A stretch of DNA of 58,234 nt from positions 1-58,234 of IMG/VR virus record IMGVR_UViG_3300031963_011225; one strand, written 5' to 3'. Under the pieces are notes generated by a model. It was not told the DNA's origin and made no database searches. It was given only the letters and a program-made list of their open reading frames with translations. The DNA comes from a virus. Within the stretch, counting starts at the first letter, position 1. Every line of letters begins with the position of its first letter. Both the position numbers and the translations under genes were made by a program. This document shows, piece after piece, positions 14,176 through 30,968 of this stretch.

Positions 14176-14207
14176 ATTGATTATTGTGTGTAAAATTCTT
14201 AGATTTC
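14176..14207 (+). promoter_or_regulatory. Possible host-type promoter of the sugar island
   Basis: ATTG (14176-14179), a 20-bp spacer and TAGATTTC (14200-14207) approximate the Bacteroidota TTTG/TAnnTTTG form, with one mismatch in each box. It lies 14 nt before the ATG at 14222 and just after a terminator. Confidence 0.35.
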
Positions 14208-14221
14208 TACAAAAGAAATTT

Positions 14222-15433: not shown

Positions 15434-15435
15434 TC

Positions 15436-16161: not shown

Positions 16162-16769
16162 TGAGTGAAGAATTAGATAACATTAACGAGGAAGAAATAA
16201 ACATGTTAATGAAACTACTTGATGAAATTGAAGTAGATGAATCCGATGATATTGATTACAATGCAATTATGGATTCTTTTGGAATTGACATTGAGGAATT
16301 AGAAAAGGAAATGGAAGAGTACGTCCCTAAAATTGAAATGGGGGTTGTAAAATCAAATGAAGATGCGGTTTTTCCATCGTATAATTATGAATCTGATTCA
16401 GGATTTGATTTGTATTCAATTGAGGAATGTTGGGTACACGCATTTGATAGAAAATTAATTAACACTGGTTTGATCCTTGACATTCCTGAAGGATATGAAA
16501 TACAAGTAAGATCTAAAAGCGGTTTAGCACTTAAACAAGGTCTTATGGTTTTAAACTCGCCAGGTACTGTAGATCAAGGGTATTTAGGTGAAATTCAAGT
16601 CATATTATTTAATACGACAAATCAAAAAGTAAAAATCGAAAAGGGTCAAAAAATTGCTCAAGCAGTCCTTTGTCCTGTTGTATCGGGAAAATGGGTTGAA
16701 TTTATTGAAAAAAATAAATTAGAAAATAAAGATAGAAACGATAACGGTTTCGGATCAACAGGGGTATGA
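16161..16769 (+). CDS. dut: dUTPase with acidic N-terminal extension
   Basis: It hydrolyses dUTP to dUMP and pyrophosphate, keeping uracil out of phage DNA and supplying dUMP for dTTP synthesis. All five trimeric dUTPase motifs are visible: SDSGFDLYS (78-86), RSKSGLA (117-123), GTVDQGYLGEI (135-145, with the catalytic Asp), KIEKGQKIAQAVLCPV (158-173) and NGFGSTG (195-201). The extra feature is an acidic N-terminus of about 58 residues absent from ordinary dUTPases of about 150 residues. The gene overlaps both neighbours by 1-4 nt. Confidence 0.95.
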   Translation: MSEELDNINEEEINMLMKLLDEIEVDESDDIDYNAIMDSFGIDIEELEKEMEEYVPKIEMGVVKSNEDAVFPSYNYESDSGFDLYSIEECWVHAFDRKLINTGLILDIPEGYEIQVRSKSGLALKQGLMVLNSPGTVDQGYLGEIQVILFNTTNQKVKIEKGQKIAQAVLCPVVSGKWVEFIEKNKLENKDRNDNGFGSTGV

Positions 16770-18268
16770 TTACAATAGTTTATTCAACACATAAAGACGA
16801 AAACTATAATAACAAATTTAAACAACACTTATTACAAACTGTTGGTTTAAAAGATGTTCAAATTTTAGAGTTTGTAAATCACAATCAATATTCTCTTTCA
16901 CAAGTTTATAATAGTGGTATTACACAATCTATTTATAATATTGTGGTTTGTTGTCATAATGATATTAAATTAGAGAAAAATTGGGGTAAAAAATTATTGG
17001 AGGATTTTTCAAATAATAATAGTTTTGGTATAATTGGAAAAGCGGGATCATGTTATTTTCCTGAAACAGGAGTTTATTGGGATAGGATGCATTATACAAT
17101 GGTAGGTCAAGTTTACCACCACCCCGAAGGTCAAAAAAAATGGTTAAATAAATATTCTTCAAAATTACCATTTTTAATTCCTGTTGTAACAATTGATGGT
17201 CTTTTTATTTCTTTTGATAAAAACAAAATTAAACACAAATTTGATGAAACAATTGGTAAATTTCACTTCTATGATCATTTGTTTTGTTTACCAAATTATT
17301 TAGATGGTGTAAAAATTGGGGTCACCTCATCTTTTGAGATTATTCATGAATCCGTGGGTCAACCAAATAAAGAATTTTTTGATAGTAAAGAAAAATTTCT
17401 TGAGAAATGGGGAAGTAATCTACCATTAGATTTGAAACCATCTGAAGTCTATGTTCCACAAATTAAAATTAAACCAATAAAAAATGTTGGTAAAGTAGCG
17501 GTTATAATCCCAACTAAGGGAAAAGTTGAAATCCTAAAAAAATGTGTTGACTCTTTTCGTAAAAATTGTGATGAAAATCTATATGATATTTTTGTTGCCG
17601 ATACAGGATCTTCAGAAGAAGAAAAAAAATGGGTCAAAGAAAATATTAGTAATATAAATTTAATAGAATATGATTACTACAATTTTGGTAAGATAAATAA
17701 TGATGTTGTTAAAAATCACATTACTAATGATTATGAGTTTTTGTTATTTTGTAATAATGATGTTGAGTTATTAAATAATATCATTTACGGAATGTTAAAA
17801 ACTTTTAAAACAAAAACCAAAGTAGGTACTGTTGGTGCTAGACTGCACTACCCAAACAATACAGTTCAACACGACGGAATTTCAATAATAATGAAACAAA
17901 CCTCTAAGACTATACTTGTTGATCATTTGACAAAAGAAACATATTATAAATTTATAACCGAAACTCAAGAAGTCGGAGGTAATACCGCAGCATTAATGAT
18001 GATCAGAAAAAAAATGTTTGATTCTTTAGGTGGTTTTAATGAGAAATTTACACATTGTTTTGAGGATGCATATTTAAATTTACAAATAATAAAAAATGGA
18101 TATCTTAATTATTGTTGTGGTGAGTGTGTTGCATATCATTACGAATCATTAACAAGAAATATTGATGAATCTAAAAAAGAATATATTGATGAATTTGACC
18201 AAATAATGTCTCCATACATAAGGGAAAATTTTGATAAATTTAAAAAATACGCTATAATATCAAATTAA
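16766..18268 (+). CDS. Two-domain GT-A glycosyltransferase
   Basis: The product is 500 residues with two GT-A-like units. The N-terminal half (1-225) contains VVCCHNDIKLEKNW, where HND takes the place of the DxD metal site, and later VTIDGLFISFDK. The C-terminal half (from about 238, VAVIIPTKGKVEILKKCVDS) is a clear GT2 domain with FVADTGS, FLLFCNNDVELL and the acceptor-side region GGFNEKFTHCFEDAYLNLQI. The fusion could add two sugars or use one domain for acceptor binding. Donor and acceptor are unknown. It overlaps dut by 4 nt. Confidence 0.87.
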   Translation: MITIVYSTHKDENYNNKFKQHLLQTVGLKDVQILEFVNHNQYSLSQVYNSGITQSIYNIVVCCHNDIKLEKNWGKKLLEDFSNNNSFGIIGKAGSCYFPETGVYWDRMHYTMVGQVYHHPEGQKKWLNKYSSKLPFLIPVVTIDGLFISFDKNKIKHKFDETIGKFHFYDHLFCLPNYLDGVKIGVTSSFEIIHESVGQPNKEFFDSKEKFLEKWGSNLPLDLKPSEVYVPQIKIKPIKNVGKVAVIIPTKGKVEILKKCVDSFRKNCDENLYDIFVADTGSSEEEKKWVKENISNINLIEYDYYNFGKINNDVVKNHITNDYEFLLFCNNDVELLNNIIYGMLKTFKTKTKVGTVGARLHYPNNTVQHDGISIIMKQTSKTILVDHLTKETYYKFITETQEVGGNTAALMMIRKKMFDSLGGFNEKFTHCFEDAYLNLQIIKNGYLNYCCGECVAYHYESLTRNIDESKKEYIDEFDQIMSPYIRENFDKFKKYAIISN

Positions 18269-18269
18269 T

Positions 18270-18830
18270 ATGGAATCAATTATAACTTTTATAATCCCGT
18301 CTTTAAATAGACCAACAATTTTAAGAACAGTAGATTCATTATTGAATCAAACTAATTCAAATTGGAAAGCAATTATACTTTATGATGGAGTTGACGGGAC
18401 TGAATTTAATAATGAAAAAATTAAAACTATCCGATTACCAAAAAAAGGATTGATGGGACCAAACAACGGTCAATCTGGTTTGGTAAGAAATGAAGGGATT
18501 AAAATTGCAGACACCGAATGGATTGGATTTTTAGACGATGATGACACTATACATCCAAATTATGTACAAACACTTTCAGAGAAATATCAAAAAAATGATT
18601 TTGTTGTTTGGAGAATGAAATATTTAAATGGGTTAGTTTTACCTGGCCTTACCGAAAACGACCTGAGATTCTCTAGGGTAGGTATATCTTTCTGTTTTAA
18701 AAGAAGTTTAGGTACAATTTTATTTGATGTTAATCGTGATGGTGAAGACTTTGATTTTTTAATGAAATTAAAAGGTTTAACAAATAATTGGGTCATAACC
18801 CCTGAAATATATTATAATGTAAGACACTAA
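18270..18830 (+). CDS. GT2 family glycosyltransferase, short
   Basis: The product is 186 residues, at the small end for a GT2 enzyme. ITFIIPSLNRPTILRTVDSL is the usual N-terminal nucleotide-binding strand and helix, and WIGFLDDDDTIHPNY carries the DxD motif within a run of four Asp. GEDFDFLMKL near the end may supply the catalytic (E/D)D base. The protein stops soon after, so the C-terminal acceptor region is minimal. It overlaps the next gene by one base. Confidence 0.87.
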   Translation: MESIITFIIPSLNRPTILRTVDSLLNQTNSNWKAIILYDGVDGTEFNNEKIKTIRLPKKGLMGPNNGQSGLVRNEGIKIADTEWIGFLDDDDTIHPNYVQTLSEKYQKNDFVVWRMKYLNGLVLPGLTENDLRFSRVGISFCFKRSLGTILFDVNRDGEDFDFLMKLKGLTNNWVITPEIYYNVRH

Positions 18831-19489
18831 TGAAAATACTAATCAAATTTCCAACTAGAGGTAGACAAGAAAAATTTTTTAAGGTTTTGGATATGTATTA
18901 TTCCTTTGCCAACAATTTAGATTTAATTGAATTTCAAATTTCTATAGATTCAGACGACCATTCAATGAATAACGATGAAGTTATTCATAAATTCTCAACA
19001 TACAAAAACTTAAAATACTCAATAGGTGAGAGTGTAAACAAAATACATGCCGTAAATAGGGATATAGTTGTTGGTGATTGGGACATAATATTGTTGGCAT
19101 CAGATGACATGATACCAAAAATAAAAGGTTATGATGACATTATTAGAACAAAAATGAAAGATATCTATCCTGATACTGACGGTATTTTATGGTTTCATGA
19201 TGGAAACCGAAAAGACCTTAACACTTTATGTATTTTAGGTAGAGAATATTATAAAAGATTCAACTACATATACCACCCTGATTATAAATCTTTATGGGCG
19301 GATAATGAATTTATGGTGGTTGGTAACATTTTGAAAAAACAGACATTCATCGATCAAGTAATTATTCACCACGAACATCCAGACTGGGGTTATGGTGGTG
19401 GAGATCAAATTCATAAATTAAACGTAAATAATAATAATCACGATATGGGAGTTTTTATGAGACGACAAAAAAATAATTTTGATTTATGA
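18830..19489 (+). CDS. GT-A fold glycosyltransferase-like protein
   Basis: The product is 219 residues. The fold is suggested by MKILIKFPTRGRQEKF at the N-terminus, a second strand ending in SIDSDDHSM, and IILLASDDMIPKIKGYD, a DD-containing metal site. IIHHEHPDWGYGGGD near the C-terminus resembles the His/Asp-rich end of such enzymes. Similar stand-alone proteins occur in surface-glycan clusters. Its sugar specificity cannot be read. It starts within the stop of the previous gene and overlaps the next by 4 nt. Confidence 0.78.
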   Translation: MKILIKFPTRGRQEKFFKVLDMYYSFANNLDLIEFQISIDSDDHSMNNDEVIHKFSTYKNLKYSIGESVNKIHAVNRDIVVGDWDIILLASDDMIPKIKGYDDIIRTKMKDIYPDTDGILWFHDGNRKDLNTLCILGREYYKRFNYIYHPDYKSLWADNEFMVVGNILKKQTFIDQVIIHHEHPDWGYGGGDQIHKLNVNNNNHDMGVFMRRQKNNFDL

Positions 19490-20133
19490 AAAAAATAATT
19501 TCTTTTAGTTTATGGGGTGACAATCCAGTTTACACTCAGGGAGCAATTAGAAATGCCGAATTGGCAAAAGAAATTTATTCTGATTGGGTTTGTAGATATT
19601 ATATTGGTAAATCAACACCAAATAATATTATTGAAAGTTTGAGAAATTTTGATAATACTGAAGTTATTGAAATGGATAATGAGGGAGATTGGACTGGAAT
19701 GTTTTGGAGATTTTACCCCGCCGGTGAAGATGATGTTGATGTTGTTATTGTCAGGGACTGCGATTCAAGATTAAACAATAGAGAAAAAGAAGCTGTTAAT
19801 GAATGGTTAAATTCGGATAAAGGATTTCATATAATGAGGGACCACCCTTGGCACACAACCGCAATACTTGGTGGTATGTGGGGTTCAAAAAAAGGAGTAA
19901 CTCCAAACATTAAACAACAAATAGAAAATTACGTTAAAGGTAATTTTTGGCAAGTTGACCAAAATTTTTTAAGAGATGTAATCTACCCGACAGTAAAAAA
20001 TAACTCTTTAGTACACGATGAGTTTTTTGACAAAAAACCTTTTCCAACAAAAAGAGAACCAAAAAGATTTGTAGGTCAAGCCTTCAATGATAAAGATGAA
20101 TTATTACATCCTGAACATATTAATTTAATATAA
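19486..20133 (+). CDS. Putative glycosyltransferase (RDCDSR motif)
   Basis: The product is 215 residues. IISFSLWGDNPVYTQGAIRN at the N-terminus and VVIVRDCDSRLNNREKEAVN, with DCD as a likely DxD metal site, match a group of small predicted glycosyltransferases found in phage and bacterial glycan clusters. HIMRDHPWH and GGMWGSKKG follow and look conserved. No membrane segment is present. Overlaps of 4 nt upstream and one base downstream show that it belongs to the transcription unit. Substrates are unknown. Confidence 0.75.
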   Translation: MKKIISFSLWGDNPVYTQGAIRNAELAKEIYSDWVCRYYIGKSTPNNIIESLRNFDNTEVIEMDNEGDWTGMFWRFYPAGEDDVDVVIVRDCDSRLNNREKEAVNEWLNSDKGFHIMRDHPWHTTAILGGMWGSKKGVTPNIKQQIENYVKGNFWQVDQNFLRDVIYPTVKNNSLVHDEFFDKKPFPTKREPKRFVGQAFNDKDELLHPEHINLI

Positions 20134-20888
20134 TGTTAGAACATAAAATATATTGTTGGTGGTTAAATAATGAAGATATGTCACAGAATAGACATGTCTC
20201 GTTGAACGATTTAAGAAACAAATCTAATTGTGAAGTTATTTTTATAACTAAAGATAATCTTAAAGATTATATTTTACCTGACTATCCTCTACACGAAGGG
20301 TATCAATATTTGTCTGAAATACAAAAAGGGGATTATCTTAAATGTTATTTTATGCATCATTATGGTGGTGGTTATTCTGACATAAAAAAAACTTTAGGTT
20401 CTTGGATCCCTTTTTTTAATCAATTAAATAATAATGAAAATTTATATGCTATAGGTTATGGTGAAAAGGAACCTGGTCATGTTGCAAGATTAGAAAACTG
20501 TGATTTAGACCCAACTAAGTCAAAATATTGTTTGGATTTTACAACAAATGAAGATGGTACCAAATGGAGTTCATCACACATAGTAAGAGAATGGTTTCAT
20601 TTGATTGGTAATGGTGCATTTATATGTAAAAAAAATACACCATTTACAAGAGATTGGTGGAATGGATTAAACGAAAAGATGGATGGATATTTAGAGGATC
20701 TTAAAAAAAATCCATCTTCTTGGGGTAGAGATTCTAAAGACCATATAAATCCAAATACAGGGCAGATGTCTAATTACCCAATAAGATGGGCGGTAATAAA
20801 TGGTAATATTTTTCACCCCCTTACCTTAAAATATAAGGATCATATTCTTAAAAACTTACACTATCCAATAACAATAAATTACCAATAA
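20133..20888 (+). CDS. GT32-like (Och1/capsular type) glycosyltransferase
   Basis: The product is 251 residues. GDYLKCYFMHHYGGGYSDI (about 68-86) is the hallmark of the DXD sugar-binding family that includes Och1-like mannosyltransferases and capsular polysaccharide synthesis proteins, in which the pattern is D-x-x-R-Y-x-x-L-x-x-x-G-G-x-Y-x-D. Here the second acidic position is the Asp of YSDI. It is predicted to be a retaining glycosyltransferase acting in the cytoplasm. Donor sugar and acceptor are not known. Confidence 0.83.
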   Translation: MLEHKIYCWWLNNEDMSQNRHVSLNDLRNKSNCEVIFITKDNLKDYILPDYPLHEGYQYLSEIQKGDYLKCYFMHHYGGGYSDIKKTLGSWIPFFNQLNNNENLYAIGYGEKEPGHVARLENCDLDPTKSKYCLDFTTNEDGTKWSSSHIVREWFHLIGNGAFICKKNTPFTRDWWNGLNEKMDGYLEDLKKNPSSWGRDSKDHINPNTGQMSNYPIRWAVINGNIFHPLTLKYKDHILKNLHYPITINYQ

Positions 20889-20899
20889 ACTATAAACAA

Positions 20900-21619
20900 A
20901 TGAAAATTAGCTTAGTAATCCCATCAACACCAAATCACTTTCGTTATATAGATTGTATATTAAAAAATTACGAAAATGGAACTGAAAAACCTGATGAAGT
21001 AATTATATCCGTATCAGAAGGAAACAGAATTAATTCTCAACTTATTGAAGAATTAAAATCTAAATATAGTAATTCTTTTGGTCGATTAGAATTTGTGTTA
21101 AACAACAGGCAAGTTATGGAGGGTCCTAACAGAGGTATTGGGTCTGAACATACCACATGTGAATATATAACTTATCACGATTCAGACGATATACCTCATC
21201 CACAAAGAATAGAAATTATAAAACATTTTTTTAAAAATTATGACATACTACATTTGAATCATTCTTATAAATATGAAACGGGATTTGATGAAATAAAAAT
21301 TGAAGACATAAAAATTGCGGATTCAAAAAAATTGTATAGTGATCATTTTGGGGATGGGAATTATACTGAAAGACCTTTAAACTATTTTCCTGACCCAAAT
21401 AATAGAGCTTATGGTTGTTGTGTAGGTTTTTGGGTTTGTGGTGGACCAACAACAATTCATAGAAGTGTTTTGGATCATATTAAGTGGAATGAAAATAGAA
21501 TCCTATCATATGATTACGATTTTTGTATGGATGTATTATTTAAATTTAATAAATCTATGGCAATTGACTCAACGTTAATTTGGTATAATAAAACGGGTGA
21601 TGCTTCTTGGGCTTGTTAA
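20900..21619 (+). CDS. GT2 family glycosyltransferase
   Basis: The product is 239 residues. MKISLVIPSTPNHFRYIDC gives the N-terminal strand and helix, VIISVSEGNRI follows, and EYITYHDSDDIPHPQRIEI carries the DSDD metal site. The region CVGFWVCGGPTTIHRSVLD matches the donor-site loop and the motif in which the enzyme senses the acceptor. LSYDYDFCMDVLF probably holds the catalytic acidic residue. It is separated by only 11-12 bp from each neighbour. Specificity is unknown. Confidence 0.87.
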   Translation: MKISLVIPSTPNHFRYIDCILKNYENGTEKPDEVIISVSEGNRINSQLIEELKSKYSNSFGRLEFVLNNRQVMEGPNRGIGSEHTTCEYITYHDSDDIPHPQRIEIIKHFFKNYDILHLNHSYKYETGFDEIKIEDIKIADSKKLYSDHFGDGNYTERPLNYFPDPNNRAYGCCVGFWVCGGPTTIHRSVLDHIKWNENRILSYDYDFCMDVLFKFNKSMAIDSTLIWYNKTGDASWAC

Positions 21620-21630
21620 TTTTATAATTT

Positions 21631-22311
21631 ATGAAATATATTTACCACCATTTAGGTTTAGGTGACCATATAATATGTAACGGACTTGTAAGACATTTTT
21701 GTGATTTACATGATGGAATTTCTATATTTTGTAAAACAAACAATTATGAAAATGTATCATGTATGTTCAGAGATGACGATAGAATAAAAATAATACCGTT
21801 AAAAGATGATAACGAAGTTATTAATTATATAAATCGTAATAAACTACATAATGATTTAATAAAAGTTGGTTTTGATAGTCTTTGGATTGGTAATCCCAAA
21901 ACATTTGATATTGGTTTTTATAATACGGCAAATATACCATTTGAGTACAGATTCACAAAGTTTAAGTTTGAAAGGGACTATGAATTAGAAAAACAAATCA
22001 TGAATGAGTTGAACCCAACAGGGGAGGATTATATATTTATTCACGACGACAAAACAAGGGGATTTTCAATTGACAGGAATAAAATTAGAAAAGATTTAAA
22101 AATAATTGAAAATGATGTTAAATATAATTTATTCCATATGTTAGGGATTATTGAGAATGCTAATGAAGTTCATATAATGCAATCATCATTCAAAGATTTT
22201 ATCAACTCATTTAGACTTGATAAACCTTTATTCTATTATCATACTTATGTTAGGGATTACCCAGATAGTTACAACACAGAAGGACACAATAAATTTATAA
22301 AAATTAATTAA
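21631..22311 (+). CDS. GT9/heptosyltransferase-like GT-B protein, reduced
   Basis: The product is 226 residues. The N-terminus YIYHHLGLGDHIICNGLVRH matches the G-x-G-D start of heptosyltransferase-like (GT9) and related GT-B proteins, and IFIHDDKTRGFSIDR resembles the second-domain strand with its nucleotide loop. At 226 residues it is much shorter than typical GT9 enzymes of about 320-350, so one domain may be cut down. The neighbouring DUF4254-like gene supports the assignment, because such proteins accompany GT9 enzymes in Bacteroidota glycan clusters. The function may be glycosyl transfer or glycan sensing. Confidence 0.65.
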   Translation: MKYIYHHLGLGDHIICNGLVRHFCDLHDGISIFCKTNNYENVSCMFRDDDRIKIIPLKDDNEVINYINRNKLHNDLIKVGFDSLWIGNPKTFDIGFYNTANIPFEYRFTKFKFERDYELEKQIMNELNPTGEDYIFIHDDKTRGFSIDRNKIRKDLKIIENDVKYNLFHMLGIIENANEVHIMQSSFKDFINSFRLDKPLFYYHTYVRDYPDSYNTEGHNKFIKIN

Positions 22312-22314
22312 ATA

Positions 22315-22662
22315 ATGATCGGAGAAAAAATAGAAGATTTGATTAAAAACAAGACACAAAAACTTTTAAACGAAGGTAAAAATGTCGAATTACCTGAAGA
22401 TATCATTGAGACAGATAATTTAGGTGAAGTAATTGAAAAATTATCAATTTTACATTGTAGAATGTGGTATTTAGAAGATGCCATTAGTGACGCAAAGTCT
22501 GATAATGAAATTGCGGAATTGAAAAGAAAAATAGATATTTGTTTTAAAATTAAAAGACCTAAATACGTCCAAGCAATTAATAGAATGGTTGAAAATTCTA
22601 TAGTAAATAATAAGTCTTTAGTTGAGGATTCTGTTAAATTATACAAAGGGGTAAATGAATAA
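22315..22662 (+). CDS. DUF4254-like helical protein
   Basis: The product is 115 residues and all helical. The block VIEKLSILHCRMWYLEDAI (about 39-57) resembles the conserved core of DUF4254 proteins, where a Leu/His/Trp/Glu-Asp pattern recurs. Full-length members are somewhat longer. Such proteins are found beside heptosyltransferase-type genes, as here, but have no established activity. It overlaps the next gene by 8 nt. The family match is by eye only. Confidence 0.6.
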   Translation: MIGEKIEDLIKNKTQKLLNEGKNVELPEDIIETDNLGEVIEKLSILHCRMWYLEDAISDAKSDNEIAELKRKIDICFKIKRPKYVQAINRMVENSIVNNKSLVEDSVKLYKGVNE

Positions 22663-23440
22663 TTTAGTAATTGGGAATACTTCACAATTAAGTTATTATT
22701 TCCCAAAAGATTACGAAAAGATTTCCTCAAGAAATTTAGATTTTAATAAAATAAAAGAAAAAAAATATAATAGGATATATCTTTTATTTGCGGAACAAAG
22801 AACATTCTTAAATGAAACTTTAGATTTTTTTAAAGAAGTTAATTTTAATTACACATTGAAAGTAATAGACGAGTTAAAAGACGTATGTAATAAAATTGTA
22901 ATTTATTCTACTTCTGAATTGTGGAATAAATACGATGGCTGTGTGTCGGTAAATGATCCATATAATTATAACCCAACATCATATATCACATCTAAAGAAC
23001 ATTTATGTAATCACATAAATAACAATCGAGAAAACTATAGTAATGTGATTATTATTTACCCATTTAATTTTAACTCAGTCCACAGAAAAGAGGGATTCTT
23101 GTTTGGTAAAATATTCAAATCAATTTTGAATGACGAAAAAATTTCAATTGGTAACGTAGATTTTGAAAGAGATTTAATTCACCCAAGTGTAATTGTGAAT
23201 GAATCAATAAAAACTAATGAGGACATATTAGTAGGGTCAGGTGAGTTATATAATGTAAAAAACTTTATCAAGGATATCTTTACACTATACAATAAAAATT
23301 TAGATGAATATATTTTAACTGATAATAAGAACAATTTAAATAATAAACGAAATGGTTACTATAGTTGTAAAAAATATTCTAACTATAATGACCTATTAAA
23401 TCTTTCAATAAAAGACATATATGAGTATAAAGTTAGTTAA
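22655..23440 (+). CDS. Diverged SDR-type sugar epimerase/reductase
   Basis: The product is 261 residues. The N-terminus MNNLVIGNTSQLSYYF sits where extended short-chain dehydrogenases have G-x-x-G-x-x-G, but the Gly residues are mostly lost. A Ser in IVIYSTSELW and Y-I-T-S-K (about residues 110-114) provide the Ser/Tyr/Lys set of this superfamily. IIIYPFNFNSVHRKEGFLFG matches the substrate-binding strand after it. It may be an NDP-sugar reductase or epimerase, or a weakly active relative. It overlaps the ColD-like gene by 20 nt, consistent with work on the same substrate. Confidence 0.65.
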   Translation: MNNLVIGNTSQLSYYFPKDYEKISSRNLDFNKIKEKKYNRIYLLFAEQRTFLNETLDFFKEVNFNYTLKVIDELKDVCNKIVIYSTSELWNKYDGCVSVNDPYNYNPTSYITSKEHLCNHINNNRENYSNVIIIYPFNFNSVHRKEGFLFGKIFKSILNDEKISIGNVDFERDLIHPSVIVNESIKTNEDILVGSGELYNVKNFIKDIFTLYNKNLDEYILTDNKNNLNNKRNGYYSCKKYSNYNDLLNLSIKDIYEYKVS

Positions 23441-24572
23441 AGACACCATTGATTTTGATGATGTATCATTATTAATTGAGTGGTTAAAAACAAACCCAAG
23501 ATTAACAAAAGGAGATCTTACAATCGAATTTGAGAAGGCTTGGTCTAAGTGGTTAGGAGTTAAATATTCGGTATTTGTTAATTCAGGTTCTTCTGCAAAT
23601 TTAGCGGCAATATATTCTCTTATGTTGTCAAATAGAATGAGAAATAAAAAAATTGTGGTACCCGCCGTTTCTTGGGTTACTACCGTAACACCCGCAATAC
23701 AACTTGGTTTAGAACCAATAATGTGTGAATGTGATGTGGATAATTTAGGTTTAGATATAAATCATTTGAAAGAAATTATTAAAAAAGACGACCCATCTGC
23801 AATTATTTTAGTTCATGTTTTAGGGATTCCTAATAATATGGATGAAATTGTCGAACTATGTAATGAAAATAATATTTTGTTAGTTGAGGACACTTGTGAG
23901 TCTATTGGTTCAAAATATAACGATAAAATGGTTGGTACTTTTGGTAAGATGTCAACATTTTCTTTTTATTTTGGTCACCATATCTCAACTATAGAAGGTG
24001 GTATGATATCTACAAATGATGAAGAATTATACCATATTTTACTATCAGTTAGATCACATGGTTGGGATAGAGATTTACCAAAAGAAACTCAAATTAAATT
24101 GAGGGAAAAATATAATATAAATAATTTTAGGGCTCTATATACGTTCTATTATCCAGGTTTCAATCTTAGATCAACAGACCTACAAGCATTTTTAGGATTA
24201 GGTCAGTTAAAAAAAATAGATCAAATTGTTGAAAACAGACATAAAAATTATTTGAAATATAAAAATGAAATAAAAAATGATTTTTGGAATGTTTCAGAAC
24301 CAAAAGGATCATACGTGTCAAATTTTTCATTCCCAATAATTACAAAAAATATTGATAAATTAATTGAAAAATTAAATGAAAATGATGTTGAGTGTAGACC
24401 ATTAATTTGTGGTTCAATTAATGAACATCCGTTTTGGTATGAAAGATATGGTAAACAAGAATTACCAAATTCAAAATTAGTACATGAGTACGGATTGTAT
24501 TTACCAAACAATCATCAAATGACAGATGAAGAATTAAATAAAGTTATAAAAATTGTAAACGAAAATATATGA
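23421..24572 (+). CDS. colD: ColD-like PLP-dependent GDP-4-keto-6-deoxymannose 3-dehydratase
   Basis: The product is 383 residues of the DegT/DnrJ/EryC1 sugar aminotransferase fold: NSGSSANL (54-61, PLP phosphate loop), VPAVSWVTTV (80-89) and VEDTCES (155-161, Asp against the pyridine nitrogen). At the position of the PLP lysine it has His (H186 in FGHHISTIEGG). Loss of that lysine to His is the signature of ColD, which removes the 3-OH of GDP-4-keto-6-deoxymannose instead of transaminating. VECRPLICG near 318 also resembles ColD. Directly downstream are gmd, which makes this substrate, and a GDP-fucose-synthase-like gene. A GDP-colitose route is inferred. Confidence 0.85.
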   Translation: MSIKLVKDTIDFDDVSLLIEWLKTNPRLTKGDLTIEFEKAWSKWLGVKYSVFVNSGSSANLAAIYSLMLSNRMRNKKIVVPAVSWVTTVTPAIQLGLEPIMCECDVDNLGLDINHLKEIIKKDDPSAIILVHVLGIPNNMDEIVELCNENNILLVEDTCESIGSKYNDKMVGTFGKMSTFSFYFGHHISTIEGGMISTNDEELYHILLSVRSHGWDRDLPKETQIKLREKYNINNFRALYTFYYPGFNLRSTDLQAFLGLGQLKKIDQIVENRHKNYLKYKNEIKNDFWNVSEPKGSYVSNFSFPIITKNIDKLIEKLNENDVECRPLICGSINEHPFWYERYGKQELPNSKLVHEYGLYLPNNHQMTDEELNKVIKIVNENI

Positions 24573-25546
24573 AAAAAGCGTTGATAACAGGTATTAACGG
24601 TCAGGATGGTTCTTACTTGGCGGAACTTTTATTAGAAAAAGGTTATGAAGTTTGGGGAACAGTAAAAAGAAACTCCGTTTCTGAAACTCAATCATCAAGA
24701 ATTGAAAATCTTAGAGATAGTAATTCAGTAAATCTTGAATATGCTGATTTGTCTGACATGGCTTCACTAGTTCGTGTTTTAAGTAAAGTACAACCTGATG
24801 AGGTTTATAATTTAGCAGCACAATCTCACGTAAGAATTAGTTTTGACCAACCAATATACACAGCAAATGTTACAGGTGTTGGTACATTAAATTTATTAGA
24901 AGCGGTTAGGTTGGTTTCACCACATTCAAAAATATATCAAGCATCTTCTTCTGAAATGTTTGGTAATAGTATTGACAACGATGGTTATCAAAGAGAAACA
25001 ACACCAATGAATCCTGTGTCACCTTATGGGTGTGCAAAAGTATTTTCATATAATATTTGTAGAAATTATAGAAATTCTTATGGTATGAAAATATGGAATG
25101 GTATTTTATTTAATCATGAATCACCTAGAAGAGGGACAAACTTTGTAACTAATAAAGTTGTAAAAGCGGCAGTAAGAATTAGTTTGGGATTACAAGATAA
25201 ATTACATTTGGGGAATCTTGAAGCAACGAGAGATTGGGGACATGCAAAAGATTACGTTGAAGCAATGTGGTTAATGTTACAAACTGATAAACCTGATGAT
25301 TATGTATGTGCCACTGGTATATCTCACTCTGTGAGGGATCTATGTAAATATACATTCTCAAAATTAGGTTTAGATTTTAACAACTATGTTATTGTTGACG
25401 AAAAACATTTCAGACCTGAAGAGTTAGAAAATTTAAAAGGAGACTCAACTAAAATGAGAAAAGCTTTGTCTTGGGAACCTAAATACACATTTGAATCTAT
25501 GATAGATGAGATGGTTGAATATTGGTTAGATTATTATGGAAAATAA
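24569..25546 (+). CDS. gmd: GDP-mannose 4,6-dehydratase
   Basis: It converts GDP-D-mannose to GDP-4-keto-6-deoxy-D-mannose using bound NADP. The product is 325 residues, close to the usual length. Visible motifs are ITGINGQDGSYLAELLL (6-22, dinucleotide loop), NLAAQSHV (81-88), YQASSSEMFG (123-132, catalytic Ser/Glu), the Tyr-Lys pair in SPYGCAK (Y153, K157), NGILFNHESPRRG and RDWGHAKDYVEAMW. All are typical of Gmd. It overlaps the ColD-like gene by 4 nt and the following SDR gene by 11 nt, so the three are coupled in translation. Confidence 0.95.
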   Translation: MKKALITGINGQDGSYLAELLLEKGYEVWGTVKRNSVSETQSSRIENLRDSNSVNLEYADLSDMASLVRVLSKVQPDEVYNLAAQSHVRISFDQPIYTANVTGVGTLNLLEAVRLVSPHSKIYQASSSEMFGNSIDNDGYQRETTPMNPVSPYGCAKVFSYNICRNYRNSYGMKIWNGILFNHESPRRGTNFVTNKVVKAAVRISLGLQDKLHLGNLEATRDWGHAKDYVEAMWLMLQTDKPDDYVCATGISHSVRDLCKYTFSKLGLDFNNYVIVDEKHFRPEELENLKGDSTKMRKALSWEPKYTFESMIDEMVEYWLDYYGK

Positions 25547-26447
25547 AATATTAATAACAGGCGGATATGGTTTAGTTGGTTCTGAGTTTGTCGGTGAACA
25601 ATATTTCAAACCTACATCAAAAGAATATGATCTAAGAAAAACAGAAGACACTAATAGATTAATGGTTAAACATTTTGATGGTGTCATACATTGTGCAGGT
25701 AAAGTAGGTGGTGTTGGTGGTAATATGAATCACAAAGGTGAATTTTTTTACGATAATATAATGATGAATACGAATGTGATTGAGGGTGCTAGATTATCTA
25801 AAGTTAAAAATTTAGTGGCTTTTTTATCAACATGCGTCTTTCCTGACCAAGTTGATTATCCTCTAACTGAGAAAAAAATTCATTTAGGACCACCTCATTT
25901 CTCTAACGACGCTTATGCATATTCAAAAAGAATGACAGATATTCAAATCAGATCGTATAAAGAACAATACGGATTAAATTATAAATCTGTCATACCTTGT
26001 AACATTTATGGTCCAAACGATAACTACGATGTAGTTAATGGACACGTAATACCATCTCTTATACATAAATGTTATTTAGCAAGAGAAAATAAAACCCCAC
26101 TTAAAATATGGGGTTCTGGAAAACCATTGAGAGAGTTTATTTTTAGTAGGGATGTTGCAAAACTAACTGAATGGGTTTTACACAATTATAATGAAAATGA
26201 ACCAATTATATTGTCAACTTCAGAAGAAGTACAAATAATGGATGTCGTAAGTATAATTGTTGAATTAATGAATTTTAAAGGTGAGGTAATATATGACTCA
26301 TCAAAACCTGACGGTCAATTTAGAAAACCGTCAGACAATTTCAAAATAAAACATTATTTACCTAATTTTGAATTTACCCCAATTTACGAAGGTTTGAAAG
26401 AAACTATACATTTTTTTGAGAGTAACTATAATAAAATTAGAAAATAA
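25536..26447 (+). CDS. fcl: GDP-L-fucose synthase family (Fcl/ColC-like) epimerase-reductase
   Basis: The product is 303 residues of the extended SDR superfamily. Motifs include ITGGYGLVGS (7-16), STCVFPD (98-104), IHLGPPHFSNDAYAYSKRM with catalytic Y127 and K131, and IPCNIYGPNDNYD. These identify the GDP-4-keto-6-deoxymannose 3,5-epimerase/4-reductase family. The same family includes ColC, which acts on the 3-deoxy ColD product to make GDP-L-colitose. Beside a ColD-like enzyme the ColC role is likely, but sequence motifs alone do not exclude GDP-L-fucose synthesis. Confidence 0.88.
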   Translation: MENKILITGGYGLVGSEFVGEQYFKPTSKEYDLRKTEDTNRLMVKHFDGVIHCAGKVGGVGGNMNHKGEFFYDNIMMNTNVIEGARLSKVKNLVAFLSTCVFPDQVDYPLTEKKIHLGPPHFSNDAYAYSKRMTDIQIRSYKEQYGLNYKSVIPCNIYGPNDNYDVVNGHVIPSLIHKCYLARENKTPLKIWGSGKPLREFIFSRDVAKLTEWVLHNYNENEPIILSTSEEVQIMDVVSIIVELMNFKGEVIYDSSKPDGQFRKPSDNFKIKHYLPNFEFTPIYEGLKETIHFFESNYNKIRK

Positions 26448-26450
26448 TAT

Positions 26451-27446
26451 ATGATAAGAAACATACTAGTAACAGGTGGTTTAGGATATATTGGTAGCCA
26501 CACTGTTGTCCAATTAATAGAAAATAACTACAATGTTATAATTTTAGATAATTTGTCTAACTCAGATCTAACCATGTTAGATAAGATTGAGGTTATTACC
26601 AATAAAAAACCAAAACTATATATCGGTGACATAAGGGATAAAGACTTACTTAATAAAATTTTGAGTGAGAATATAATAACTGACGTAATTCATTTTGCGG
26701 CATTAAAATCTGTATATGAATCTACAATTAAACCATTAGAATATTATGAAAATAATGTTGTTGGTACAATTACATTATTAGAAATGATGAAAAAGTTTAA
26801 CGTTAAAAATTTAATTTTTTCATCTTCTTGTACCGTGTATGGTGAACCTGATAACTATCCAGTAAACGAATATACACCAGTAAAAAAACCCAAAACAACT
26901 TACGGACTAACTAAAAGTATTTGTGAAACAATAATAGAAGATATCACAGATATCAGATGTGTTTGCTTAAGATACTTTAACCCTATCGGTAATCATAAAA
27001 CAGGAATTATTTACGAAAAACCAAATGGTGTCCCTGAAAATTTAATGCCATACTTAATAGGTGTTATAAAAGGAGAATATGAATATTTGAGAGTCTTTGG
27101 TAACGACTACAATACAAAAGATGGTACTGCAATACGAGATTATATAGACGTTAATGATTTAGCAAATGCTCACGTAAAATCATTAAATATTGTCAACGAT
27201 ATAACACATGAAATAATCAATGTTGGTACTGGAAATGGGTATAGTGTTATGGAAATTATCAACACATTTAAAAATAAAGGTTATGATGTACCCTATAAAA
27301 TATATCCAAAAAGAACCGGAGATATAGAAAAAATATGGGCCGATATAAGTAAGTCCAAAAAGATCTTAAATTGGGAACCAAAAAATAACATTTCAAACAG
27401 TATAGATTCCATAATAAACTCAATAAACCTTGATGTTGACAAATAA
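26451..27446 (+). CDS. galE: UDP-glucose 4-epimerase
   Basis: It interconverts UDP-glucose and UDP-galactose, and some relatives act on the GlcNAc/GalNAc pair. The product is 331 residues, the standard length. VTGGLGYIGSHT (7-18) is the NAD loop, FSSSCTVYG (123-131) holds the catalytic Ser, and TTYGLTK (Y151, K155) completes the triad. LRYFNPIGNH, NLMPYLIGV and GTAIRDYIDVNDLA are classic GalE blocks. It ends the nucleotide-sugar run and could supply galactose-type donors to the island's transferases. Confidence 0.95.
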   Translation: MIRNILVTGGLGYIGSHTVVQLIENNYNVIILDNLSNSDLTMLDKIEVITNKKPKLYIGDIRDKDLLNKILSENIITDVIHFAALKSVYESTIKPLEYYENNVVGTITLLEMMKKFNVKNLIFSSSCTVYGEPDNYPVNEYTPVKKPKTTYGLTKSICETIIEDITDIRCVCLRYFNPIGNHKTGIIYEKPNGVPENLMPYLIGVIKGEYEYLRVFGNDYNTKDGTAIRDYIDVNDLANAHVKSLNIVNDITHEIINVGTGNGYSVMEIINTFKNKGYDVPYKIYPKRTGDIEKIWADISKSKKILNWEPKNNISNSIDSIINSINLDVDK

Positions 27447-27470
27447 AACATCGTAGAGTAAAATTAAAAT

Positions 27471-28202
27471 ATGACAAGAAGAAAACCACAACCAACAGAG
27501 GAACCTTATGTACCTTTGAATTCTAAAAGAGATGTAATCTCCCAAGTAGTTAAGAAAAAACAAAAAAGTAAATTTCTTACCGAAAATCAAAAAATATATT
27601 ACGAAACATTATTAAATAATCAAATTACAATCTGTTCAGGTCCTGCGGGTGTTGGTAAAAGTTTTATTGCCATGAAAACAGCGGTAGATCTTTTATTAGA
27701 TGATGGTAATGGATATGATAAAATCATAATTGTAAGACCAGCGGTTGAGGCAGAAGAAAAATTAGGGGCTTTACCTGGTAATTTAGAAGAAAAATTAGAT
27801 CCATATATTTTCCCATCTTACTATTTGTTAAATAAAATTATTGGTAAAGAGGCTAGAGAAAAATTAAAAGATGCAGAAGTAATTGAGGTTTTTGCTTTGG
27901 CATATATGAGAGGTATGACAATAGACAATTCAATTTTAATTTTTGAGGAAGCACAAAATGCAACACCAAAACAAATGAAATTACTATTGACAAGAATCGG
28001 TACCAACACTAAATTCTTTATCTCTGGCGACATTGAGCAAACCGATAGATATAAAGATAAAAAACACTCAGGTCTTTATGATGCGATAACAAGATTTAAT
28101 GGTATAAACGGAATTGGGATTTTTGAGTTTGGCGATAAAGATGGTGTAAGAAATCCAATAATTACTAAAATATTACAAAAATATGATGAAGATAGGGATT
28201 GA
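27471..28202 (+). CDS. phoH: PhoH-like ATPase
   Basis: The product is 243 residues. SGPAGVGKS (56-64) is the Walker A loop, IIIVRPAVEAEEKLGALPG is the diagnostic PhoH block, ILIFEEAQNATPKQMKLLL includes Walker B, and FFISGDIEQTDR is the sensor region with the conserved Gly-Asp. PhoH is a P-loop ATPase widespread in phages and bacteria, proposed to act on RNA; its phage role is unsettled. It overlaps the next gene by about 20 nt. Confidence 0.92.
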   Translation: MTRRKPQPTEEPYVPLNSKRDVISQVVKKKQKSKFLTENQKIYYETLLNNQITICSGPAGVGKSFIAMKTAVDLLLDDGNGYDKIIIVRPAVEAEEKLGALPGNLEEKLDPYIFPSYYLLNKIIGKEAREKLKDAEVIEVFALAYMRGMTIDNSILIFEEAQNATPKQMKLLLTRIGTNTKFFISGDIEQTDRYKDKKHSGLYDAITRFNGINGIGIFEFGDKDGVRNPIITKILQKYDEDRD

Positions 28203-28848
28203 TATTAATGGTGTATTGAGAGATACGGTTGGTAAATTTACTCAACTATATGAAAAACATTTGATCGAGAGTAATGAAAATGAAGAGGTCACCCAAACAA
28301 CCTATGAACTTGATATGTCAGGTAATACAACACCAATAACAGAAACTTTAGAAAAATTCGAATATAAAAAAATATCTGATGTAGATTCTTTAGAGTTGGA
28401 CAAACATTTTTCTTTTAGAAGTAAGGATGAGTTATTTAATTTTATGTACGAAGAATATGCGATGGAATTATTTGGTCACGCTCCATCTACAGAAATGACG
28501 ACATTTAATATACTTAATGAAATTTATTTTAATTTAAGAGATAAGAATGAATTAGTAGTTGTTTCAGGAGAAATAGGTAAATCAAAACCATCTTCATTGT
28601 TTTTCTTATCAAAATTTGGATGCTTGTTGGAAAAAGTTATTTTTTTTAGTGAAATAACAAAAAAAAATATGTGGGACCAAATAGACATTTTACTTACTGC
28701 GGATCCTATTCTATTATTAGAAAAACCTGTAGGTAAAATTGTTGTTAAGTTTAACACTTCCTACAATAAACAAATCAAATCAGATTATGAAATTTCTTCA
28801 CTTTCTGAGTTTGAGCAAATTATACAAAACCTTAAACAAAATGTTTAA
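28186..28848 (+). CDS. HAD-superfamily phosphatase-like protein
   Basis: The product is 220 residues; ATG at 28183 or 28186 is possible. The N-terminal IGIDINGVLRDT (4-15) matches HAD motif I (D-x-D-G-x-x-x-D) but with Asn in place of the second Asp, the residue that normally acts as general acid. LVVVSGEIGKSKPSSLFF corresponds to motif II and the Lys region, and ILLTADPILLL to the last acidic motif. Overall it resembles 5'-deoxynucleotidase-type HADs. The missing acid suggests reduced or altered activity. It overlaps phoH and the following small gene. Confidence 0.7.
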   Translation: MKIGIDINGVLRDTVGKFTQLYEKHLIESNENEEVTQTTYELDMSGNTTPITETLEKFEYKKISDVDSLELDKHFSFRSKDELFNFMYEEYAMELFGHAPSTEMTTFNILNEIYFNLRDKNELVVVSGEIGKSKPSSLFFLSKFGCLLEKVIFFSEITKKNMWDQIDILLTADPILLLEKPVGKIVVKFNTSYNKQIKSDYEISSLSEFEQIIQNLKQNV

Positions 28849-29095
28849 TATTTTTGATGAACATTACTATATCGACTTAGACAAAATTGAAGACGAGGTT
28901 GCTTTAGTAGGTACAAGCGGGGAATCGCAAATTCATTTAGTTAAATACGAAATGATAAAAAATATGGTAGAAACCGTTCTTACAGAAGACGAAATAGTTG
29001 ATGAAAAAATGGGATTTAAAACTAATGAAGTTTCCATCCCTTTCAAAATTTCTTTCAACACATTACTGATGAAAAAAATAATAAATAAATTATAA
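28841..29095 (+). CDS. Small hypothetical protein
   Basis: The product is 84 residues from MFNIFDEHYYIDLDKI. This ATG overlaps the end of the HAD gene by 8 nt. A longer reading from further upstream would lie inside the HAD gene and is not supported. The protein is acidic with a beta-rich N-terminus and probable C-terminal helices. Five bases separate it from the next gene. No family was recognised. Confidence 0.65.
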   Translation: MFNIFDEHYYIDLDKIEDEVALVGTSGESQIHLVKYEMIKNMVETVLTEDEIVDEKMGFKTNEVSIPFKISFNTLLMKKIINKL

Positions 29096-29100
29096 TAGAT

Positions 29101-30159
29101 ATGAATACAGAACAAATCACAAAATTGGAAAATTCTATCAACAACATGAAAGAGAAGTTGTCTAGAATTTATTTCATAGTACAAGACACCAAAGGAAACG
29201 CTAAGGCATCTGTTAGATACATTTACCAAATGGCATTAACATTGAAGAGAAATGGATATAACTCAATCATCCTTCATGAAAAACCTGAATACTACGGTGT
29301 TGATTCTTGGTTAGGAGAAGAATATATGACTGAATTAGAACACAGAGCAATTGAAGGTACTAGCTTGGAAATTTCACCTGATGATCTAATTATCATTCCC
29401 GAAATCTATGGTTTTATTATGGACCAAATTACTAAATTACCTTGTGGCAAAATTGTTCTTTGTCAAGCATTTGATCATATATTTGAGACTTTACAACCAG
29501 GTCAAACTTGGAGTCAATTAGGATTCTACAAATGTATTACAACTTCTAACAAACAAAAAGAACTTATTGAGTCAGTTATGAGAAATGTATATACTGATGT
29601 TATTTCACCATATATTTCGGATACTTTCCAAAAAAATATTTTCCCACCTAAAACTATTGTGAACATCCACACAAGAGATCATAGAGATACTACTAACTTG
29701 ATTAAATCATTCTATGCTAAATTCCCACAATATAGATGGATTACATTTAGAGATTTAAGAGGTTTGTCTGAAGAAGAATTTAGCGAAGCCATGAAAGATA
29801 GTTTTATTTCAGTTTGGATTGACCAAACAAGTTCTTTTGGGACTTTCCCATTAGAGTCTATGAAAATGGGTATACCAGTGTTAGGTTTAGTTCCTGACTA
29901 TGTACCGTCATGGATGAATGAAGATAATGGTCTGTGGGTAAATAATAAAACGATTATTGTTGACGTATTATCAGATTTTATTCAGAATTGGTTAGAAGAC
30001 AATTTAAACCCTGAGTTGTTTTCTAATATGGATTCAACAATTGAATCAATAAGTAATTTTGAAAAATTCCAATCTGAAACATTAGAATTATTTGGTAAAA
30101 TGTTCGAGAGTAGAATCGCTTCTTTTGAAGATCAACTAACTAAAATTGAAACAGTATAA
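29101..30159 (+). CDS. GT-B glycosyltransferase-like protein
   Basis: The product is 352 residues. After a short N-terminal helix come Rossmann-like elements (IYFIVQDTKGNAKASVRYI, IIIPEIYG, KIVLCQAFDH). The C-terminal domain begins near IFPPKTIVNIHTRDHRD. SSFGTFPLESMKMGIPVLG is the E-containing nucleotide-sugar loop typical of GT4-like enzymes. The C-terminus is a long helix. It resumes the glycosyltransferase series after the phoH-HAD insertion. Donor and acceptor are unknown. Confidence 0.8.
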   Translation: MNTEQITKLENSINNMKEKLSRIYFIVQDTKGNAKASVRYIYQMALTLKRNGYNSIILHEKPEYYGVDSWLGEEYMTELEHRAIEGTSLEISPDDLIIIPEIYGFIMDQITKLPCGKIVLCQAFDHIFETLQPGQTWSQLGFYKCITTSNKQKELIESVMRNVYTDVISPYISDTFQKNIFPPKTIVNIHTRDHRDTTNLIKSFYAKFPQYRWITFRDLRGLSEEEFSEAMKDSFISVWIDQTSSFGTFPLESMKMGIPVLGLVPDYVPSWMNEDNGLWVNNKTIIVDVLSDFIQNWLEDNLNPELFSNMDSTIESISNFEKFQSETLELFGKMFESRIASFEDQLTKIETV

Positions 30160-30161
30160 TT

Positions 30162-30968
30162 ATGAGTATCGAAAATAAAATATCAGTTATTTTACCTATT
30201 AAATCAGGTAAAGCAATAGACTTCAAAGAGTTCTTTGATAAGTGTATCCAATCAATAAGAAATCAAGGTGAATATTTAAATGAACTAATTATTGTTCATG
30301 GTTCTGAAGATTTTTTAACTAACTTCTTAGATGAGTATGAATTTAGTGGTTTGACAGTTGTAAGAGAAGTTTGGTCAGAATCTCCTAATTTTGCAAAACA
30401 AGTTAATAGAGGTGTTGAGTTATCAACATCTGAATGGTGTTCAATTGCAGAGTTTGACGATGAATATTCAAATATTTGGTTCAAAAACGCAACTAAATAT
30501 ATGGATATTTATAAAGATGTAGATGCTTTTTTACCAATCGTTGTTGACGTTGATGATAAGTTGGTTTTCGCTGGTTTTACTAACGAAGCTACTTTTGCAG
30601 CAAACGTATCAACAGATATGGGAATTTTGACAAATGAAACATTACAAACATATCAAAATTTCCAAACATCAGGTATGGTTTTCAAGAAAGAAAAATACCA
30701 AGAAGTTGGTGGTATTAAGTCTAACATTAAACTTACTTTCGGATATGAATTATTTTTAAGACTAACACACAACTCAGTAAAAATTATGACAATACCTCGT
30801 ATTGGTTATAAACACATGAATTTAAGAGAAGGATCTATATTTTGGAATTACAAAAATGGTGATGATAGATTAGATCAGGATGAAGCAAGATTTTGGATTG
30901 AGTCAGCAAAAAAAGAATATTTTTTCAAAAACGAAAGAGATATAAATTATGAACCACAAAATATTTGA
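30162..30968 (+). CDS. GT2-like glycosyltransferase
   Basis: The product is 268 residues. ISVILPIKSGKAIDFKEFFD is the N-terminal strand and helix, NELIIVHGSEDFL follows, and EWCSIAEFDDEYSNIWF carries an EFDDE site where GT2 enzymes have DxD. SGMVFKKEKYQEVGGI is the usual donor-side loop before the catalytic helix, and GYELFLRL may carry the acidic base. It overlaps the sigma-factor gene by one base (TGATG) and ends the glycosyltransferase series. Confidence 0.82.
   Translation: MSIENKISVILPIKSGKAIDFKEFFDKCIQSIRNQGEYLNELIIVHGSEDFLTNFLDEYEFSGLTVVREVWSESPNFAKQVNRGVELSTSEWCSIAEFDDEYSNIWFKNATKYMDIYKDVDAFLPIVVDVDDKLVFAGFTNEATFAANVSTDMGILTNETLQTYQNFQTSGMVFKKEKYQEVGGIKSNIKLTFGYELFLRLTHNSVKIMTIPRIGYKHMNLREGSIFWNYKNGDDRLDQDEARFWIESAKKEYFFKNERDINYEPQNI

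Follow-up and report, generated by a model that had tools for sequence, protein, structure and literature searches.

Which sugar would be made by a phage gene run that sets a ColD-like pyridoxal phosphate (PLP) enzyme beside Gmd, a GDP-mannose 4,6-dehydratase, and two candidate reductases? We examined this question in a viral record of 58,234 bases (IMG/VR IMGVR_UViG_3300031963_011225; "the window" below means this whole stretch), which encodes a T4-type capsid protein (Gp23), a T4-type terminase and a portal protein. The run (Table 1) comprises SDRx, encoding a short protein of the extended short-chain dehydrogenase/reductase (SDR) type, the PLP gene, Gmd and FCL1, encoding a GDP-L-fucose synthase relative. 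These genes overlap head to tail (SDRx/PLP gene 20 bases, PLP gene/Gmd 4, Gmd/FCL1 11), a GalE gene comes next and all reading frames are open. An earlier, sequence-only reading correctly placed Gmd immediately after the PLP gene and proposed that the last three genes make GDP-L-colitose; its range starts at 22655 and so includes the SDRx gene, which is absent from its text. Our analysis indicates that this T4-like phage probably carries genes for an unusual 3,6-dideoxy sugar. We see an even chance that a GDP-3,6-dideoxyhexose, probably of the D configuration, is the joint product of Gmd, the 3-dehydratase and SDRx, with Gmd and FCL1 forming a GDP-L-fucose pair alongside.

Genes, residues, predicted folds and gene associations were established directly. 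The PLP enzyme belongs to the DegT/DnrJ/EryC1/StrS family (Pfam, 254 bits), and its best PDB matches were the ColD entries (245–250 bits), followed by E1 (161) and perosamine synthase (124). At the Schiff-base position it has a histidine, H186, which aligns with H188 of ColD, its closest solved structure; in the alignment 2gms has His at this site, 3b8x (titled H188N) has Asn and 2r0t has Lys. In a 107-row alignment, H186 was present in 103 of the 103 rows that are not Lys-type aminotransferases, bearing out the earlier view that His replaces the Schiff-base Lys here as in ColD. The adjacent second His, H187, is replaced by Gln in 26 of these 103 rows and was rejected as the catalytic residue, since the aligned PDB mutants place the catalytic position at H186. 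The enzyme thus has His where GDP-perosamine synthase has its catalytic Lys. It also has no Cys between RSHGWDRD and YYPGFN; an RfbH-like phage protein (L130) has several between its RSHGW-like and PGFN-like motifs. In E1/RfbH these Cys presumably bind a [2Fe-2S] cluster. The AlphaFold2 model of the PLP enzyme had a mean predicted local distance difference test score (pLDDT) of 88.1, falling below 50 in the loop 185–190 that holds H186. A fold search placed ColD first (Z 43.7), by a small margin, all 50 matches listed having Z of at least 38.9. With such values, and with GalE, Gmd and Rmd chains tied in the search for SDRx described below, fold ranking was rejected as a test of function. From a structure search of BFVD (28 matches at E 0.001 or better, best 21% identity) we drew no conclusion. 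A review describes, for 3-dehydratases, a His in place of the catalytic Lys and, for ColD, hydrolysis of the intermediate and regeneration of pyridoxamine phosphate (PMP) by glutamate (PMC8987622).

Is the enzyme then a ColD? All trees used here are quick trees with Shimodaira–Hasegawa-like approximate likelihood ratio support, given in brackets for supported branches. A PLP tree with one ColD and one RfbH-like row met long branches, and 10 ColD relatives were added. They came from a search of 398 Pseudomonadota genomes with ColD, which gave 12 matches at E 1e-80 or better; the ColD label denotes at least 44% identity to 2gms, and the partial L137 and L143 were omitted. A full-length, ColC-type Fcl relative stood beside the ColD match in 5 of these 12 loci (about 1.5 kb seen per side). 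In the resulting 54-row tree, the 11 ColD-type rows formed a clade (100) without the window enzyme. The window's group of six phage rows (99) lay within a separate set of 20 rows (99) that holds a metagenome-assembled Acidobacteria genome, Pelagibacter and Nitrospira/Elusimicrobia-type enzymes. Further sets contained cyanophage enzymes (98) and enzymes of bacterial clusters in which Gmd and an Fcl relative often adjoin (100), the joining order of the sets not being fixed by the tree. Mean identity between the phage group and ColD was about 36%. The sequence-only reading had made its case depend on a place inside the ColD clade, and the enzyme falls outside it. In all likelihood the PLP enzyme works like ColD, yet it appears to be no orthologue of the ColD that was tested.

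The bacterial relatives have neighbourhoods of their own. In one His-type clade, 26 bacterial loci among L048–L118 (Nitrospira, Elusimicrobia and others) read FGHQ instead of FGHH. Over all bacterial loci compared, the recurrent neighbours, found mostly at FGHQ loci, were a heptose-kinase-like GHMP kinase (19 loci), radical-SAM B12 proteins (12), a sugar-1-phosphate guanylyltransferase/HddC-like protein (9) and thiamine-diphosphate enzymes like E1 alpha and beta (6 and 7). The FGHQ-clade clusters possibly make branched or heptose-derived 3-deoxy sugars. In Pelagibacter (L080, L083, L084) the neighbours of the His-type 3-dehydratase include a CDP-glucose 4,6-dehydratase (424 bits against a cut-off of 278 for L080, the cluster member tested) and a second, Lys-type sugar aminotransferase.

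Which enzyme would finish the sugar? SDRx had no PHROG match, and NCBIfam gave only a weak match to TIGR01472 gmd (29 bits). Its AlphaFold2 model (pLDDT 89.9) matched best, in Foldseek, GDP-mannose 4,6-dehydratases (E 6.5e-16) and the GDP-4-keto-6-deoxymannose reductase (Rmd) 2pk3 (E 2.1e-13). Against 2pk3, Z was 23.2 with a root-mean-square deviation of 2.8 over 256 aligned residues, GalE and Gmd chains tying with Rmd in Z. Across 12 SDRx sequences T86, S87, E88, Y110 and K114 were invariant, and an RD..H motif (R172, D173, H176), as seen in Gmd, was kept. SDRx thus has the predicted extended SDR fold of the Gmd/Rmd branch together with its Ser/Thr, Tyr and Lys, although it is some 30–50 residues shorter than Rmd (PDB 2pk3, 6x3b) and 12–18% identical to it in structure alignments. 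Counterparts of the Fcl residues Cys109 and His179 were not found in an SDRx–Fcl alignment of only 14–17% identity. On model and residues, SDRx is a probable 4-ketoreductase partner of the PLP enzyme.

The genomic company of SDRx is consistent with this role. A scan of viral contigs with its alignment gave 71 loci in 49 clusters, 44 of which had both flanks (5 of 49 without). In these 44, a PLP gene was near in 33, Gmd in 23 and any Fcl in 14; Gmd was near in 20 of the 33 with a PLP gene. At one locus (L198), which has no PLP gene nearby, Gmd follows SDRx directly; an enzyme that reduces the product of Gmd might be placed in this way. Among phage records SDRx matched two, LR756501 and LR756503 (315,882–316,652, 42.5% identity), both uncultured phages of 735,411 bases.

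A second line of evidence came from related phages, in which SDRx alternates with another Fcl type, FCL2. The viral scan with the PLP enzyme gave 46 matched stretches with 45 relatives, of which 40 loci (L001–L040) had at least 72% identity over most of the protein; dereplication at 97% protein identity left 25 distinct loci (L041–L043 and L045, at 34–36% identity, and L044, a truncated gene, were left out). Around the PLP gene, the search reached 3.5 kb for SDRx and 3.8 kb for Fcl (L030 and L034 are short); L015, with just 57 bases of contig ahead of its PLP gene, hence shows no SDRx and was merged with L016. SDRx was nearby in 12 of the 25 loci and FCL2 in 13, with both in none and neither in none, and FCL1 accompanied 8 of the 12 SDRx loci and 0 of the 13 FCL2 loci. 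With loci of the SDRx scan added, the count became 34 SDRx and 13 FCL2 of 47, a figure biased by construction. On the PLP tree the SDRx/FCL2 labels needed 5 changes (shuffled mean 11.7), at least two of them forced by supported branches; thus the labels are also inherited, and shared descent makes the co-occurrence counts non-independent. Record-wide searches agreed: of 18 records, 15 had an Fcl (7 of FCL2 type, 8 of FCL1 type) and 11 had SDRx; the 7 with FCL2 gave no SDRx bar one weak match lying on the Gmd gene. Reciprocally, an FCL2 scan of viral contigs gave 13 clusters, 10 with both flanks (3 of 13 without), in which the PLP gene was near in 9, Gmd in 10 and SDRx in 0. All of these records may be fragments, none being rated at least 90% complete. 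The alternation of SDRx with an enzyme that has reductase residues suggests that both serve the same step.

Is an Fcl needed at all? SDRx, the PLP gene and Gmd occurred with no Fcl match in eight records of 22–269 kb (G423, 269 kb; G444, 136 kb; G007, 95 kb; G012, 51 kb; G430, 44 kb; G014, 39 kb; G447, 25 kb; G442, 22 kb). By gene content, Fcl is dispensable beside these three. Gmd lay within the record in 12 of 16 SDRx-PLP records, most of which had been picked because no Gmd was seen nearby. A GT11 fucosyltransferase-like motif was rejected as a marker of L-sugar loci because its frequency did not differ between FCL2 loci (7 of 13) and SDRx loci (6 of 12); the window has none.

What would the cassette make? 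We infer each of its reactions, substrates and products. The locus would be a nucleotide-sugar cassette with two overlapping modules supplied by one Gmd. Gmd would yield GDP-4-keto-6-deoxymannose, from which the PLP enzyme would remove the C3 hydroxyl by ColD-type chemistry (PMP as cofactor, His as acid/base, glutamate regenerating PMP). SDRx would reduce the 4-keto group and release a GDP-3,6-dideoxyhexose, leaving C5 as is; since SDRx is without the epimerase Cys and His, the D series would probably be kept. The candidate product is GDP-3,6-dideoxy-D-mannose (tyvelose configuration) or its C4 epimer; to our knowledge, the former is known in no organism. In parallel, FCL1 with Gmd would supply GDP-L-fucose, and neighbouring glycosyltransferases would use both sugars, on a virion protein or on the host surface. 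FCL2, with its epimerase pair, would yield GDP-L-colitose, and the sister phages that carry it appear, from their genes, to be better colitose candidates than the window. More tentatively, a T4-like phage lineage may have repeatedly exchanged the enzyme that finishes a 3,6-dideoxyhexose, FCL2 (GDP-L-colitose) against a Gmd-derived SDRx (a GDP-linked D-3,6-dideoxyhexose), switching the handedness of the sugar displayed or written on the host; we regard this wider scenario as possible.

Several observations weigh against such a pathway, and other readings draw on them. The first of these readings is the GDP-L-colitose pathway itself, in which Gmd and the ColD-like enzyme would be followed by FCL1 acting as ColC (5-epimerase and 4-reductase), with SDRx as an accessory. 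FCL1 sits in the same gene run, contiguous with the PLP gene and Gmd, and keeps the residues needed for a ColC role: S107, C109, Y136, K140 and H179 (E. coli numbering) are conserved in FCL1, in FCL2 and in the ColC-type proteins beside ColD. We take S107, Y136, K140 and H179 to have roles in epimerase/reductase activity. Cys109 is named in PMC8787198. An apparent loss of H179 in FCL1 (GPND versus GPHD) was rejected, because by E. coli numbering H179 is the later, conserved His of GHV. An Fcl relative beside ColD-like enzymes is common in bacteria, FCL2 phages have the same arrangement, and some Fcl is near in 14 of the 33 SDRx clusters with a PLP gene. Moreover, at L282 an FCL1-type gene with another SDR stands next to the PLP gene, and both SDRx and FCL2 are missing; the SDRx model found 0 of 12 in the set of records that includes L282, in a run with no positive, the same model having matched elsewhere. 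L222 is exceptional in another way: it has FCL2 and Gmd but no PLP gene near and no PLP match in its 77-kb record. As for the eight Fcl-free records, the host could provide an Fcl, or its gene could lie beyond the ends of the fragments searched.

Other properties of FCL1 point away from colitose. Its neighbour Gmd is ordinary by its best matches, the NCBIfam score lying just under the curated cut-off of 415 and SSSE standing in place of the STSE motif of E. coli Gmd. FCL1 is full length; its best PDB matches are GDP-L-fucose synthases, the human enzyme first (292 bits), and it scores below the cut-off of the NCBIfam GDP-L-fucose synthase model NF047922 (210.7 versus 500 bits). As the five epimerase/reductase residues also occur in GDP-fucose synthases, they do not separate ColC from that enzyme. 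In a 73-row Fcl tree, whose bacterial rows were chosen by score and length, FCL1 (8 rows) and FCL2 (13 rows) fell in a 34-row set with human GDP-fucose synthase (99), and the five ColC-type rows in another 34-row set with E. coli Fcl (98), leaving FCL1 outside the ColC grouping. A viral contig scan with FCL1 (80 of 136 stretches kept; 79 loci, 56 clusters at 95%) gave 48 clusters with both flanks (8 of 56 without), where Gmd was near in 46, a PLP gene in 7 (two at only 32–37% identity) and SDRx in 4. In an FCL1 tree covering part of the clusters (39 scan rows, 3 of FCL2 and 4 of the SDRx-PLP-FCL1-Gmd type), the presence of a PLP gene, taken as a label, needed 6 changes, and the window FCL1 was nested among copies without a PLP gene near. 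A search for the PLP gene throughout 13 records, mostly FCL1 records with none nearby, matched in 4, closely in L282 (60%) and at 32–33% in the others. Because FCL1 mostly occurs without a PLP gene near and because of its nested position, Gmd-FCL1 looks, on gene associations, like a free-standing GDP-L-fucose pair, with the SDRx-PLP pair set beside it. Thus, the suggestion that FCL1 could act as ColC holds for its residues, but its tree position and company resemble those of a fucose synthase. Likewise, the proposed colitose set keeps its ColD-type His, its adjacent Gmd and an Fcl with suitable residues, but the PLP enzyme stands outside the ColD clade and the closest partner of its gene is SDRx. 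Together with the eight records that lack an Fcl match, these findings make colitose in the window rather unlikely.

Alternatively, SDRx may do something else: it could catalyse a step after C3 deoxygenation other than 4-reduction, or be a non-catalytic partner, the keto sugar being completed by a host enzyme or by FCL1. This is suggested by its nucleotide-binding loop, which reads GNTSQLS rather than GxxGxxG, by its shortened Rossmann region, by its low identity to Fcl and by the lack of a nearby PLP gene in 11 of the 44 SDRx clusters that have both flanks. However, the invariant active-site Thr, Glu, Tyr and Lys, the confidently predicted extended-SDR fold and the alternation with FCL2 are what a reductase of the same step would have, and another role seems unlikely to us.

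A starting sugar different from GDP-mannose, such as a CDP-hexose or a GDP-heptose, is in our view very unlikely; in that case Gmd would serve only FCL1. With Pelagibacter relatives standing beside a CDP-glucose 4,6-dehydratase, the PLP enzyme by itself does not tell which substrate is used, the Nitrospira/Elusimicrobia relatives stand beside a heptose-kinase-like GHMP kinase, and Gmd was not found at E 1e-20 in 4 of the 16 SDRx-PLP records. Yet Gmd directly adjoins the PLP gene in the window, and it is near in the 20 of 33 SDRx clusters given above and in 9 of the 9 flank-complete FCL2 clusters with a PLP gene. Finally, an aminotransferase making GDP-perosamine or another amino sugar shares the DegT fold (perosamine synthase, Z 41.5 against the model), but this is hardly credible given the His at the Schiff-base position, the far higher sequence score of ColD and the lack of aminotransferase activity of ColD and E1 under conditions where SpnQ had it, as the same review reports (PMC8987622).

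How does the preferred pathway, with SDRx as the 4-ketoreductase, compare with known systems? The PLP enzyme shares with E. coli ColD (PDB 2gms, 3b8x, 3gr9) the fold, the His at the Lys position, the lack of an E1-like Cys insert and the Gmd neighbour; it differs in identity and clade and in having SDRx, not a ColC-type gene, as nearest partner. In the gmd-colC-colD-type sets of Pseudomonadota (L132, L134, L135, L138, L139) an Fcl relative likewise adjoins a His-type 3-dehydratase, the gmd gene end being visible in 3 of 5, whereas in the window FCL1 lies outside the ColC branch and is of a type mostly without a PLP gene near, and an extra SDR gene overlaps the 3-dehydratase gene. Closest among deposited phages are the cyanophages ACG-2014f (NC_026927) and S-CAM7 (NC_031927), which have adjacent Gmd (52–53% identity), Fcl relative (34%) and His-type PLP enzyme (35–39%); they differ in PLP clade and in an Fcl that falls, in the Fcl tree, on the side of E. 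coli GDP-fucose synthase, and the loci opened gave no match to SDRx. A phage with Gmd, Fcl and His-type PLP genes side by side is therefore not new: the belief that no full set had been described overlooked these complete Gmd-Fcl-ColD-like sets, which carry generic names, although our literature search found no paper on one. Searches on colitose or tyvelose with phages and related terms found no phage-borne 3,6-dideoxyhexose pathway among the matches listed (titles and abstract starts; subscription journals mostly outside coverage). Among 50,697 phage records, 83 gave some match to the PLP enzyme, all below 60% identity. A cyanophage with annotated Gmd and GDP-L-fucose synthase has been published, according to the annotation given in PMC9602691. 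PBCV-1 is a virus with Gmd-based GDP-deoxysugars of the D and L series, combining a reducing Gmd (GDP-D-rhamnose) with a GDP-L-fucose enzyme; the pathway described there has no 3-dehydratase, and the 4-ketoreductase activity resides in Gmd, not in a separate short SDR (PMC4691112).

The finding bears on the annotation of phage PLP enzymes and Fcl relatives: enzymes of this PLP type are annotated "aminotransferase" and Fcl relatives "nucleotide-sugar epimerase", two S-CAM7 deposits reading CDP-sugar 3-dehydrase. On bacterial surfaces, 3,6-dideoxyhexoses act as strong antigens, and a phage able to synthesize them could change the receptor surface of the host cell or place the sugars on its own virion. 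Should SDRx prove to be the finishing enzyme, it would represent a new reductase family and possibly lead to a new GDP-sugar, and the SDRx/FCL2 exchange beside nearly the same 3-dehydratase offers natural pairs for testing how the last enzyme sets the sugar.

Table 1. The gene run of the window and its two flanking genes.
Feature	Position	Strand	Basis
Small conserved protein, 115 aa	22315..22662	+	Weak DUF4254 similarity
SDRx, 261 aa, short extended SDR of the Gmd/Rmd branch; probably the 4-ketoreductase that partners the PLP enzyme	22655..23440	+	Weak gmd match, predicted fold
PLP/PMP enzyme, ColD-like predicted sugar 3-dehydratase, H186 replaces Lys	23421..24572	+	DegT family, ColD best PDB match
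Gmd	24569..25546	+	TIGR01472, 414.9 bits; best PDB match GDP-mannose 4,6-dehydratase, 343 bits
FCL1, GDP-L-fucose synthase relative, probably GDP-L-fucose pair with Gmd	25536..26447	+	Best PDB match, residues, gene association
GalE-type epimerase after the cassette, outside the conserved cassette	26451..27446	+	TIGR01179, 365 bits (cut-off 262)

Of the flanking genes, the first encodes a protein whose Pfam DUF4254 match (E 0.00068, 19.9 bits) is under the cut-off of 27; such a gene is near SDRx in 20 of the 44 flank-complete SDRx clusters and recurs beside SDRx and the PLP gene, at times between both. GalE, sought at more than 30% identity among 46 loci compared, occurs only in L001–L007, near-copies of the window. 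Several glycosyltransferase-like genes, some with weak matches, lie at 14,177–30,968, interspersed with others such as dUTPase and PhoH.

Two further frames run off the window. A ClpA/ClpB-type AAA protein with two AAA modules is encoded at 56230–58233 (+ strand) of this T4-like phage. A fibre-like open frame at 2–8080 (− strand) encodes at least 2,693 aa; its runs of at least 5 Gly-x-y triplets add up to 807 triplets, and x is Thr in 768 of these, mostly as GTN and GTS. One guess is that the sugar cassette may serve to O-glycosylate the product of this Gly-x-y frame. Of 28 related records, 5 had a (GTx)6 coding pattern, including one near-copy of the window, and 0 had the reversed control pattern.

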